Source: Cohnella laeviribosi DSM 21336
GTDB taxonomy: Bacteria; Bacillota; Bacilli; Paenibacillales; Paenibacillaceae
DNA length: 64,000 nucleotides
Direction: 5' to 3'
Assembly: GCF_000378425.1 (NCBI RefSeq)
Contig: NZ_KB899816.1
Span: forward strand, 62,001-126,000
Shown: one piece after another, positions 9,463-12,781 of the stretch
Numbering within the stretch: position 1 is the first letter of the stretch
How the letters are laid out: every line of letters begins with the position of its first letter
The notes under the pieces: model-generated
Told to the model about the DNA's origin: nothing
The model's input: only the letters and a program-made list of their open reading frames with translations
The model's database searches: none
Position numbers and translations under genes: made by a program

Positions 9463-10623
9463 TCATTTTCCGCTCTCGCCTTGTTCCGCGTCGTCCTGTG
9501 CCGCCTCGTCGGACGCCGTGGCGTCCTGCGGCGTTTTTTCGGCGTTGAGCAGCCTTCGCTTCTCCGCGCTGCGCTCCCTTCTCGCTGCGCGGCTGCGGCG
9601 AACGAGCACGAACGTCGGCGCCGCCAATATGGCGGCGACCAGCAAAACGGGCAGCAGCGCCGCCAGGAACGTCAACAGCCCCTCGCCGATCAGGCCCAGC
9701 ACGCGGGCGCTGCCCTTCATCGCGCGAGCCAGACGCGCGCCCAGGTCCGCGTTTCCGTCTTCCGCCGGCTCCGTCATGTCTTCCGGCTCGCCTTCGTAAA
9801 GCCGCAAGTTCACCGTGGAATACGCCACGTTCTGATCGAGGTAACGCATCCGGCCTTTGATCTGCTCGATTTTCTGCTGGACGCTTGCGATCTCGTTCGA
9901 AAAGCGGACCAGGTCGTCCGACTTCGTCGCCTTGTCCATAAAGGCGAGCAGCCGTGCCTCCAGCGCCTGCTGGGCCTTCAGCCGCGCTTCCAGATCCACA
10001 TATTCCTCGGTGACGTCGTTGCCCTGCATCTGCCTTTCAAATTCGAGATGGGGGATTTGCTTGAGCTCGGCCAGAAAGGAACTGAAGCCGGACGAAGGCA
10101 CCTTGATGACGTAAGTCGAGCCGATCCGGCCGTCCGTGCGCGTATCGGCAAACTGGACGATGTATCCGCCGCTTTGGAAAATCGCATTGGACACCTGTTC
10201 CTCCGCTTTGGCGAACGACGCGACTTTCATCGTCACGTTCGCGGAATAGATCATCTTCCGGTTGTACCCGGCGTTCGCATCGGCGACGGGACCGATTCCC
10301 GCGCCCGCGGCCGGCGGGATCGAATCGGCTTCGCTTCCGGAACCCGCCTCCCCCGCCGCCTCCTGTGCCTGAGCCTTGCCCACGTCGGCCGCCTGCGCCT
10401 CCTGTCCGGCGGCGGGCAGCGCATCATGCTGCGCGCCCCCTTCGAAGGTCGGCTGCGCCTCCGCCGCGGCCGGCGCTCCCGGCGCGCTCATTCCGCCCGC
10501 GGCCGCGTCGTTTTTTTCTTCCCCGCCGGAGCTGCATCCCCCCAGCAACAGCGCCAGGGCAAGCAGCGATCCCGCCGCCCAAACGCCGATGCTCCCGATC
10601 CTTGTCCGCCTTCCCTTTTCCAT
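9463..10623 (-). CDS. DUF4349 lipoprotein
   Basis: Predicted surface lipoprotein of 386 residues with unknown biochemical role. From the ATG at 10623 the signal peptide ends in the lipobox LLGGC (Cys30). A low-complexity Ala/Gly/Glu linker (about 35-120) leads into a DUF4349 domain that starts near NRKMIYSANVTMKV and includes a coiled coil (about 230-290), then a membrane helix (about 325-350) and a charged cytoplasmic tail. Having both a lipid anchor and a C-terminal helix is typical of this family. The frame is open further upstream, but AAGGGGG fits only this start. It is a single-gene unit with an ECF-like promoter and a strong terminator. Confidence 0.85.
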   Translation of the reverse strand: MEKGRRTRIGSIGVWAAGSLLALALLLGGCSSGGEEKNDAAAGGMSAPGAPAAAEAQPTFEGGAQHDALPAAGQEAQAADVGKAQAQEAAGEAGSGSEADSIPPAAGAGIGPVADANAGYNRKMIYSANVTMKVASFAKAEEQVSNAIFQSGGYIVQFADTRTDGRIGSTYVIKVPSSGFSSFLAELKQIPHLEFERQMQGNDVTEEYVDLEARLKAQQALEARLLAFMDKATKSDDLVRFSNEIASVQQKIEQIKGRMRYLDQNVAYSTVNLRLYEGEPEDMTEPAEDGNADLGARLARAMKGSARVLGLIGEGLLTFLAALLPVLLVAAILAAPTFVLVRRSRAARRERSAEKRRLLNAEKTPQDATASDEAAQDDAEQGESGK

Positions 10624-10656
10624 GCGCTCATCCCCCTTTGTTTTTCCATTTCGATT

Positions 10657-10683
10657 GACGAGGGGTAAAAGGAAAATGTTGCA
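10657..10683 (-). promoter_or_regulatory. ECF-sigma-type promoter for the DUF4349 lipoprotein
   Basis: On the minus strand TGCAAC (10683-10678) and CGTC (10660-10657) are 17 bases apart, about 35 bases before the start codon. This is the AAC / CGTC pattern used by envelope-stress ECF sigma factors such as SigM, SigX and SigV of B. subtilis. Which sigma factor reads it cannot be told from the window. Confidence 0.55.
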
Positions 10684-10809
10684 TCTTTTTACAAACGCAG
10701 TTCGAGGGCCGCTCCCCGCTTGTCCGTCGGGCGTCGGGAGACGGGAACCGATCCGAAACGGATTCTCCGTTCCGATCCGCGGATCCACTCGCCTCTCCCA
10801 ACCGCTCAA

Positions 10810-10986
10810 GCCTTACGCGCTCTCTGCATCCGTACGCATTTTCTGCGCCGAGACCTGCTCCTTCGTCTGCAAAAATACGAGGTTCAGCAGGAGATCCCGG
10901 GAGAGCGGAACAGCTACAGCAAGAGGGAGCCGGACGCCGCCATCTTTGAGATGAAGGCAGAGCACAATATGAGGTATAGATCATGA
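10810..10986 (+). pseudogene. relic of an IS1182-like transposase
   Basis: The plus-strand frame ending at 10986 contains LLRLQKYEVQQEIPGERNSY followed by SKREPDAAIFEMKAEHN. This resembles the conserved RNSYSKTDPDATFMRMKEDH block of IS1182-family DDE transposases as I remember it. Only about 50 residues remain: there is no transposase-like sequence before it, a stop follows at once, and no inverted repeats were found. It directly precedes the 112-bp tandem repeat. The family assignment is from memory of the motif and has not been tested by alignment. Confidence 0.5.
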
Positions 10987-11001
10987 CGTTGGCGAGTCTC
11001 T

Positions 11002-11225
11002 TCGGGCGCGCGGCTCGTCTGACCGGCCGGGCGTAGCTGCAGTTGCCATAACCGCAACTGCGCAGCCCATTTTCGCGCAAGCCCCCGTTCTAGTTGCTTT
11101 AGCGGCAATTAAATCGGGCGCGCGGCTCGTCTGACCGACCGGGCGGCACTGCAGTTGCCATAACCGCAACTGCACAGCCCATTTTCGCGCAAGCCCCCGT
11201 TCTAGTTGCTTTAGCGGCAATTAAA
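11002..11225. repeat. two tandem 112-bp repeats carrying AGTTGC dyads
   Basis: Two adjacent units (11002-11113 and 11114-11225) have an exact period of 112 bp and differ at only a few positions, mostly around unit positions 23-36. A truncated third start, TCGGGC, follows at 11226. Each unit has two dyads of the same design: AGTTGC-N7-GCAACT and, about 50 bp later, AGTTGC-N7-GCAATT. The minus-strand reading frames across it repeat with the DNA and carry no recognisable protein. It looks like a structured intergenic repeat rather than a gene. The source element and function are unknown. Confidence 0.85.
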
Positions 11226-11407
11226 TCGGGCTGGCGAAAAAAGAAATATGAATCCGGATATGAAGAAATCCAATTCTCCAACCCGATTCGCCTTCGCCGG
11301 CTGTTCGAGGAAAGGATGAAGCCGAGAGACAAAAGCGAACCGAAAACGGAACGCAGGACAGACACGCCAAAGGCTGCTTCCCCTTTCCTTCCCCGGCTTA
11401 TGGCCAT
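11226..11407. other. intergenic stretch, no feature recognised
   Basis: Between the tandem repeat and the ahcY terminator I see no conserved frame, promoter or hairpin. The open minus-strand frames here have no ribosome site. Confidence 0.5.
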
Positions 11408-11440
11408 AAAAATAGGCCAACCAGAAATCTCTGGCTGACC
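11408..11440 (-). terminator. intrinsic terminator of ahcY
   Basis: On the minus strand an 11-bp stem with wobble pairs (GGTCAGCCAGA with TCTGGTTGGCC, loop GATT) is followed by TATTTTTA. It lies about 80 bases after the ahcY stop. Confidence 0.75.
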
Positions 11441-11518
11441 TGATCATACGAAAGCCGCTCCACAACGTTTGGACTGCTTAGGGGGCAGCCCCTTAACCGC
11501 TCCGGTACCGGTTGCCGG

Positions 11519-12781
11519 TCAGTGGGTCGCCCAGCTTTGCAGGTACGCTTTCTGCTCTTCGCTCAACGTGTCGATGGAAATGCCCATCGCCGCAAGCTTC
11601 GTCCGGGCGACCTGTTCGTCAATCTCGTACGGCACGTTGACCACTTTCGCGCCGATCGATTGGTAATTTTCGTTTACATAACGCAAGGAGAGCGCCTGCA
11701 GCGCGAACGTCATGTCCATAATCTCCGCCGGATGCCCGTCGCCTGCGGCAAGGTTGACGAGACGCCCTTCGGCGAGCACGTAGATGCGGCGTCCGTCCTT
11801 CAGCACGTACTCTTCGATATTGCGGCGGACGGTACGCTTCGAGACGGCAAGTGCGGCCAGCTCGACCAGATTGACTTCCACGTCGAAGTGCCCCGCATTG
11901 GACAAAATCGCGCCGTCCTTCATGTTTTCGATATGGCAGCCGCGAATGACGTCCTTGTTGCCGGTAACCGTCACAAAGAAATCGCCGACTTTGGCCGCTT
12001 CGGCCATCGGCAGCACCGTAAAGCCGTCCATGTACGCTTCGACCGCCTTGATCGCGTCCACTTCCGTCACGACCACGTTCGCGCCAAGCCCTTTCGCCCG
12101 CATCGCCACGCCTTTGCCGCACCAGCCGTAGCCGTTGACGACGACCGTCTTGCCCGCCACGACCAGGTTCGTCGTCCGGTTGATGCCGTCCCACACCGAT
12201 TGGCCCGTGCCGTACCGGTTATCGAACAGATGCTTGCAATACGCGTCGTTCACCGCGACCATCGGGAATTTCAAGGTGCCGTCCTTTTCCATCGCTTTGA
12301 GCCGCAAAATGCCGGTCGTCGTCTCCTCCGCCCCGCCGCGGATCGTGGACAGCAGGTCCTGGCGCTCGGTGTGCAGAATGGTAACGAGATCGCCGCCGTC
12401 GTCAATGATCAAATCGGGCTTTGTTTCGAGCGTCTTGATGAGCAGATCGCGGTATTCCTGCGCCGTCGGATTGTATTTTGCGAACACGGTAATGCCGTCC
12501 GCGGCCAGCGCCGCGCAAATGTCGTCCTGCGTCGACAGCGGATTGCTGCCCGTGATCGCCACTTCCGCGCCGCCCGCCTGCACGACTTTGGCCAAATAAG
12601 CCGTTTTCGCTTCCAGGTGCAGCGAAATCGCGACCTTAAGCCCCTTGAACGGCTGCTCGCGCTGGAACTCCTCGCGGATACGGTTCAGCACGGGCATGTG
12701 CGCCTGCGCCCAGTCGATTTTAAGCTTGCCTTCCGGAGCCAGCGACGGGTCCCGGATAATGCTGTTGGTAGTCGTAGCCAA
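11519..12781 (-). CDS. ahcY: adenosylhomocysteinase
   Basis: Cytosolic NAD-dependent enzyme that splits S-adenosylhomocysteine into adenosine and homocysteine, removing the by-product of methylation. 420 residues. The Rossmann motif VVVNGYGWCGKGVAMRAKG lies in the middle, SLHLEAKTAYL near the N-terminus forms part of the substrate site, and the chain ends with the family-typical YLQSW. The start is TTG at 12781, supported by GAGGAGG eight bases upstream. The gene follows bshC by 40 bases on the same strand, so the two may be cotranscribed. B. subtilis uses the Pfs/LuxS route and lacks this enzyme. Confidence 0.96.
   Translation of the reverse strand: MATTTNSIIRDPSLAPEGKLKIDWAQAHMPVLNRIREEFQREQPFKGLKVAISLHLEAKTAYLAKVVQAGGAEVAITGSNPLSTQDDICAALAADGITVFAKYNPTAQEYRDLLIKTLETKPDLIIDDGGDLVTILHTERQDLLSTIRGGAEETTTGILRLKAMEKDGTLKFPMVAVNDAYCKHLFDNRYGTGQSVWDGINRTTNLVVAGKTVVVNGYGWCGKGVAMRAKGLGANVVVTEVDAIKAVEAYMDGFTVLPMAEAAKVGDFFVTVTGNKDVIRGCHIENMKDGAILSNAGHFDVEVNLVELAALAVSKRTVRRNIEEYVLKDGRRIYVLAEGRLVNLAAGDGHPAEIMDMTFALQALSLRYVNENYQSIGAKVVNVPYEIDEQVARTKLAAMGISIDTLSEEQKAYLQSWATH

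Follow-up and report, generated by a model that had tools for sequence, protein, structure and literature searches.

Arrays of regularly spaced palindromes between genes of Cohnella laeviribosi resemble the REP/BIME repeats of E. coli

What is a short tandem array of palindromes doing between two genes of Cohnella laeviribosi DSM 21336, and is it a local event or one member of a wider family? The array lies in what we call the window, the whole 64,000-bp stretch analysed (contig NZ_KB899816.1, positions 62,001 to 126,000; G+C near 0.6, host genome 4.48 Mb). TRF called 11002-11231 as a repeat of period 112, with 2.1 copies and a score of 425. Unit 1 (112 bp, 11002..11113, + strand) and unit 2 (112 bp, 11114..11225, + strand) are 96% identical at a spacing of 112, bearing out the claim of an earlier note on this DNA that two near-identical units stand in exact tandem; the truncated third unit that it also described is present, but amounts to merely 6 bases (11226..11231, + strand, TRF). 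Unit 1 runs in the order dyad HP1, linker, dyad HP2, linker, and the four related hairpins in a row claimed by the note are there, as dyads without strand centred at 11050, 11101, 11162 and 11213. HP1 of unit 1 (11039..11061) reads GCAGTTGC-N7-GCAACTGC and is followed after 51 bp by HP2 (11091..11111); HP1 of unit 2 (11151..11173) comes 61 bp after the unit-1 HP2, and its own HP2 (11203..11223) another 51 bp on. The core of HP1 is CAGTTGC-N7-GCAACTG (11040-11060 and 11152-11172), and both copies of HP2 read TAGTTGC-N7-GCAATTA. Taken alone, and with as many as 3 mismatches allowed, the dyad pattern falls short of significance in the window: it matches 6 times where 2.7 matches are expected, and 7 of 100 shuffles give at least 6. 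We therefore rest the case on the units standing in tandem and on their family across the genome.

The array is flanked by a gene for a DUF4349 protein (9463..10620, - strand, PF14257) and by the S-adenosylhomocysteine hydrolase gene ahcY (11519..12781, - strand, PF05221 and PF00670), and lies about 290 bp past the stop codon of the latter. Across the repeat the ORF list gave no coding sign, the ORFs being short and overlapping in several frames. The interval 10600-11530 contains no promoter-like site, and its sole terminator-like site, a stem-loop between ahcY and the array (11414..11441, - strand), is not at the dyads; one such site against a shuffle mean of 1.2 is not significant alone. Another repeated intergenic stretch, of GAAGCCGAGAGACAAAAGCGAACCGAAAACGGAACGC type, occupies 11310-11370 of the window and also flanks the elements of loci L007 and L008. 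Among the domain-identified genes of the window is bshC.

The array has relatives throughout its own genome. With blastn, copies occur at 22 places at E<=1e-4, and a covariance model searched on both strands at E<=0.01 gave 103 matches, merged by hand into 45 loci, which grade from strong to weak and together occupy about 45 x 200 bp, or roughly 0.2% of the genome. The model was built from 35 units: 6 of the 30 first loci were discarded as overlapping duplicates, units of 35 bits or less were dropped, and 35 of the 37 left were aligned, a partial unit of L006 and L030 being left out. For a 16-base dyad, exact matches number 30 here and zero in 36 further genomes of the genus; allowing up to 2 mismatches raises the number here to 69, against 6 for a reversed control pattern. 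An 18-base dyad matched 45 stretches of a named genome collection, one site each and in unrelated taxa, in a collection from which the own genome was possibly left out. Two further repeats of this genome deserve mention: a second family of tandem arrays, of GTACTG..GCGGACTACATGGCGG type with a 52-bp period and no clear palindrome (L098:1799-2036, L112:3653-4056, L203:4929-5320), and a terminator-like hairpin, ACCTCCA...TGGAGGT, that recurs beside elements in L003, L009, L012, L014, L015 and L024.

The suggestion of the earlier note that the repeat belongs to a dispersed family of structured repeats is thus borne out by the 45 loci. Its proposed search for the 112-bp unit succeeded within the genome and failed outside it, since none of 39 relatives, of which 24 belong to the genus itself, has a blastn match to the array. 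The note would have taken such absence from relatives as the mark of a local duplication. That rule misfires here, since the genome itself has many copies and its relatives show the geometry under other sequences. A tandem duplication that was recent, local and of no wider meaning would suit the 96% identity of the two units, but the 22 blastn places and 45 model loci already refute it, and we give it practically no credence. The observation holds, and reaches further than first described.

Spacing between the dyads is narrow. We measured 102 distances from one dyad to the next across the 45 loci, each extended by 250 bp in both directions; 94 of them fall at 50-52 or 60-61 bp (50, n = 9; 51, n = 55; 52, n = 1; 60, n = 2; 61, n = 27), and the usual order along an array is 51, 61, 51; the 8 remaining distances are 15, 36, 111, 112, 119 (twice), 134 and 175. 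The 51-bp spacing is partly built in, because the locus-finding model spans HP1 to HP2, but the 61 bp from unit to unit is not. In a model-free check, we searched twenty 20-kb stretches at fixed coordinates (400 kb) for dyads of the form KTGC-N7-GCAM less than 130 bp apart. This yielded 6 dyad clusters, all among the 45 known loci, in which every one of 18 neighbour distances was 50-51 or 60-61 bp (50, n = 2; 51, n = 10; 60, n = 2; 61, n = 4), and all 30 dyad pairs 16-130 bp apart fell at 50, 51, 60, 61, 111 or 112, the last two being sums of the shorter spacings. Shuffled element regions (20 mononucleotide rounds, a weak control) gave no pair at 50-52 or 60-62. The two preferred distances differ by about one helical turn. 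With 10.2 bp to a helical turn they equal 5 and 6 turns, and with 10.5 bp 4.9 and 5.8, so that it is plausible rather than proven that the dyads face the same side of the helix.

The dyads vary less than the linkers do. In the 35 aligned units, the arm columns of HP1 are 94-100% conserved, with one at 86%, and the loop columns range from 43% to 89%. The linkers are near constant in length (27-29 bp at 41 loci, 37-38 bp at 26 loci), and their median identity between loci is 0.54 for the 51-type (605 pairs) and 0.39 for the 61-type (300 pairs), against 0.26 for shuffled sequence in both cases. Between strong and weak loci, identity is 0.39 in the 51-type linker and 0.88 in the arms of dyad 1, an arm value partly set by the search pattern, which fixes half of the compared arm positions.

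Gene context, taken from a simple codon-based gene caller, places the family outside genes: 43 of the 45 loci overlap no called gene by more than 45 bases, and the other two may reflect over-long ORF starts. Both flanking genes were available for 40 element gaps, which divide into 19 convergent, 19 tandem and 2 divergent; among 80 other gaps of more than 150 bp in the same DNA, the numbers are 9, 49 and 22. L095 duplicates the window stretch, so that about 8 kb enters each set twice. Convergent gaps are therefore enriched (Fisher p 2e-5) and divergent gaps depleted (Fisher p 0.003). The orientation of the arrays in this genome has no association with GC skew (p 1.0) or with the majority coding strand (p 0.76). 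The case differs in G208, of another genus, where 12 of 14 loci have arrays oriented along the replichore (10 places with measured skew).

Insertion sequences also land in the arrays. Two ISs have ends CAAGAAAGTGGACAC and CTAAAAAGTGGACAC, and their partial proteins contain transposase domains of the integrase-core and HTH_Tnp_1 kinds. The pattern of their ends matched 17 times in the genome; one match, in L265, was dropped by eye as a chance match in other DNA, which leaves 16 junctions. Five of these 16 junctions abut a 112-bp element, a figure that leaves the number of insertions uncertain because two junctions may stem from one insertion. A third mobile end (CAACACTTCG..) is found at three places (L270, L271, L272), two of them at the same base of HP2; the third place is a CRISPR-like repeat array (ATTTCAATCCACGCA). 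IS targeting of REPs in REP-bearing species is described in PMC1525189 and PMC3733652. Elsewhere among the IS flanks, those of L254, L260, L262, L263, L266 and L268 contain, by eye, other palindromic repeats of the CGGACA..TCCGTTAT kind, about 52 bp apart, and a junction in L256 lies in an array that resembles the 52-bp GTACTG..GCGGACTACATGGCGG arrays.

REP/BIME-type repeats have been described mostly from proteobacteria. The family reported here fits none of the known families that we tested; its likeness is to the REP/BIME repeats of E. coli. We applied a REP pattern to 150 kb of E. coli K-12 and obtained 14 REPs, with close neighbours at 53, 53 and 57 bp (+-) and at 38 and 45 bp (-+); this geometry is alike, so that the array is BIME-like by architecture. 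As in BIME-2, short arrays of alternating palindromes with alternating linkers (here 51/61) lie outside genes and behind them. By contrast, the sequence is unrelated, the 51/61 spacing has little scatter, no RAYT was seen and REP tags are absent. The GTAG- and CGTC-tagged REP superfamilies, in the account given in PMC3733652, are likewise 20-40 bp palindromes in high copy, in dimers and tandem groups, in convergent or unidirectional contexts; the elements studied here are also palindromes of 20-40 bp in high copy outside genes, and 38 of their 40 gaps are convergent or unidirectional. The same survey places REPs elsewhere mainly between unidirectional and convergent genes, names the gamma and alpha divisions, and reports CGTC repeats without transposases (PMC3733652). 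However, neither a GTAG nor a CGTC tag stands at the stem end in the consensus of 35 units, and with no RAYT seen we do not count the family as a member of the tagged REP families. These results support the REP-like nature that the earlier note had offered as one reading, the loci lying outside called genes, in REP-like gene contexts and with insertion sequences in their arrays.

Other known classes fit less closely. REPINs and other RAYT-mobilised repeats, as outlined in PMC2817692, are paired palindromes of fixed length scattered between genes, as here, but no RAYT was found in this draft genome (102 contigs). CRISPR arrays share with the arrays of a related genus, g30, conserved palindromes and near-equal, unlike linkers; here, however, palindromes are few per array, loci are many, and linkers are partly alike, between loci in this genome and between species in g30. 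Inspection of copies by eye showed palindromes in tandem and no pair of terminal inverted repeats of the MITE kind. Titles and abstract openings in the open-access literature yielded no description of such repeats in Paenibacillus, Cohnella or Paenibacillaceae. Paenibacillus and Firmicutes are not mentioned in the main text of PMC3733652 or in PMC2817692, nor are Paenibacillus, Firmicutes, Bacilli or Cohnella in PMC6006769; passages of PMC10789242 concern CRISPR only.

The geometry extends beyond this genome. In G152 and G208, which represent two other genera, weak hits of the model proved to be tandem arrays of other sequence, with hairpins, at periods of 51-52 and 103 bp. In 100-kb samples, TRF found 50-52 bp arrays in 6 of 7 further genomes from the family (none in the G208 sample) and none in G025, of another family; a lag count gave at least one bin at 50-52 bp in each of the 7 family genomes and none in G025. 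These sampled arrays are not all palindromic, and some of the 51-bp ones may be coding, 51 being a multiple of 3. Across the samples, the spacings of perfect hairpin pairs with unlike arms do not peak at 49-54 bp, so that the 50-52 bp period is a property of tandem arrays and not of any hairpin pair. Behind ahcY itself, 2 of 11 relatives carry their own array, unlike that of the window in sequence: one of 104/52 bp (L182:2853-3182, genome G040) and one of 52 bp (L183:1345-1475, genome G022). The nearest relative has 85% ahcY identity, and comparison of the ahcY flanks in the 11 relatives established no empty site from which a target-site duplication of the MITE kind could be read.

A further search, across 394 genomes, asked for a pair of TTGC-N7-GCAA dyads whose centres lie 45-67 bp from each other. 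Matches occurred in 127 genomes, but a reversed-pattern control also scores in many (14 in G024), perhaps through real AACG-N7-CGTT arrays, and we therefore set the genome count aside and used the spacing distribution alone. Among the matches listed, 55 of 90 distinct places outside the own genome have spacings of 51, 52, 61 or 62; these places are not independent, several coming from one genome. Because the matches in genus g19 (33 listed places, 12 at 51) resemble, by eye, homologues of a few coding regions, this genus was set aside, which leaves 43 of 57 listed places at the same four spacings. In genus g30, the dyad AATGTTGCA-N5-TGCAACATT forms close pairs at 52 bp in 12 of 15 cases, at 51 twice and at 53 once, with linkers that differ between loci; in G064, of another genus, the dyads follow one another at 51, 62, 51 and 62. 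Orthologous g30 arrays (in G092/G121/G181, G068/G121 and G068/G092) have near-invariant dyad arms while loops and linkers change, and these invariant arms beside diverging linkers are the best sign of selection. In three g30 orthologues (L308, L312, L315), the array is headed by a dyad of the same kind within a hairpin that, read from the sequence, resembles an intrinsic terminator with its T run.

The main rival to a role as DNA is an element that works as RNA, in which hairpins at the 3' ends of transcripts shield mRNA from exonucleases or aid termination from both sides, the palindromy serving both strands. Its appeal lies in the position of the arrays behind genes, in the related g30 dyad that sits within a terminator-like hairpin, and in the stems themselves: single-side stem changes, counted by locus on the + strand, create G-U pairs more often than A-C mismatches (14 vs 4, p 0.03; HP1 alone 6 vs 2), an excess that speaks for some RNA role. 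The authors of PMC3733652 make a case for the transcription of many REPs, based on their location and on GT pairing. Yet a 51/61 spacing has no obvious reason in single-stranded RNA, the arm sequence is fixed, and compensatory change is almost lacking: RNAalifold found a double change in 1 of 12 consensus pairs, located in HP2 and in one sequence, so that the covariation which the earlier note had proposed to look for in the dyad arms is almost absent. Folding, also proposed there as a check, turned out moderate, with z of -1.9 and -3.5 for the units on the + strand and -1.2 and -0.8 on the - strand. Rfam matches RNase P alone in the window and no family in 8 array loci from this and other genomes, and the stretch around the array has no promoter-like site and its lone terminator-like site away from the dyads. 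The small-RNA version of the earlier note is thus unsupported, and an RNA-level role in general strikes us as possible but doubtful.

A selfish, non-autonomous repeat of REP or MITE type, moved by a transposase without benefit to the host and with a spacing inherited from an ancestral array, would explain why one genome holds many copies and 39 relatives show no blastn match, why the copies grade from strong to weak, and why insertion sequences lie within arrays. No RAYT was seen in the draft genome: the sole Y1_Tnp match is a 149-aa ORF, IS200-like by length, and the hairpins near this gene are of CGGCTTTAGCCG type, unlike the array dyads; mobilisation by a RAYT or IS200 enzyme was rejected on this ground, and the family has probably not spread via a RAYT transposase. 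The contrast between linker (0.39) and dyad-1 arms (0.88) from strong to weak loci, subject to the search-pattern bias given above, also speaks against this reading, as do the like geometry under other sequences in other genera and the retention of arrays at orthologous sites between g30 species. We consider a purely selfish origin unlikely.

The reading we favour, with confidence that stops a little short of even, is that of a BIME-like array of phased palindromes that acts mainly as DNA, with dyads probably bound by gyrase or a nucleoid protein. Each 112-bp unit has two related 21-23 bp dyads whose centres alternate at 51 and 61 bp, and arrays of such units are set behind genes, above all between converging genes, at some 45 genome sites; they would act mainly as double-stranded DNA. 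A putative dimeric protein, either DNA gyrase, which PMC2817692 reports to bind BIME-2 of E. coli, or a nucleoid protein, could then bind the dyads on similar faces of the helix and, once bound, handle supercoils or chromosome folding behind transcription units. The arrays may in this way form a landing platform for a DNA-organising protein. Several observations weigh against the DNA reading: the G-U bias in the stems points to RNA, the g30 dyad is extended into a terminator-like stem, the G208 arrays run mostly along the direction of replication, and neither 51 nor 61 is a whole multiple of 10.5. The search bias in the 51-bp spacing and in arm identity, the missing 49-54 bp peak for hairpins with unlike arms, and the sampled arrays that are not palindromic count against it too. 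More speculative, and in our estimate rather improbable as a whole, is a family-wide class in which lineage-specific dyads are held by selection at 51-52 or 61-62 bp (5 or 6 turns) and, placed 3' of genes in dozens of intergenic gaps, serve a fast-evolving protein of chromosome architecture as landing arrays.

A narrow spacing rule that appears under different sequences in several genera, and is kept at orthologous sites, makes the geometry separable from the sequence, and this separation makes a DNA-phasing role directly testable. What holds the geometry of REP and BIME repeats is an unsettled question. Should a binding protein come to light, chromosome organisation or the boundaries of transcription units in this family would gain a new component.
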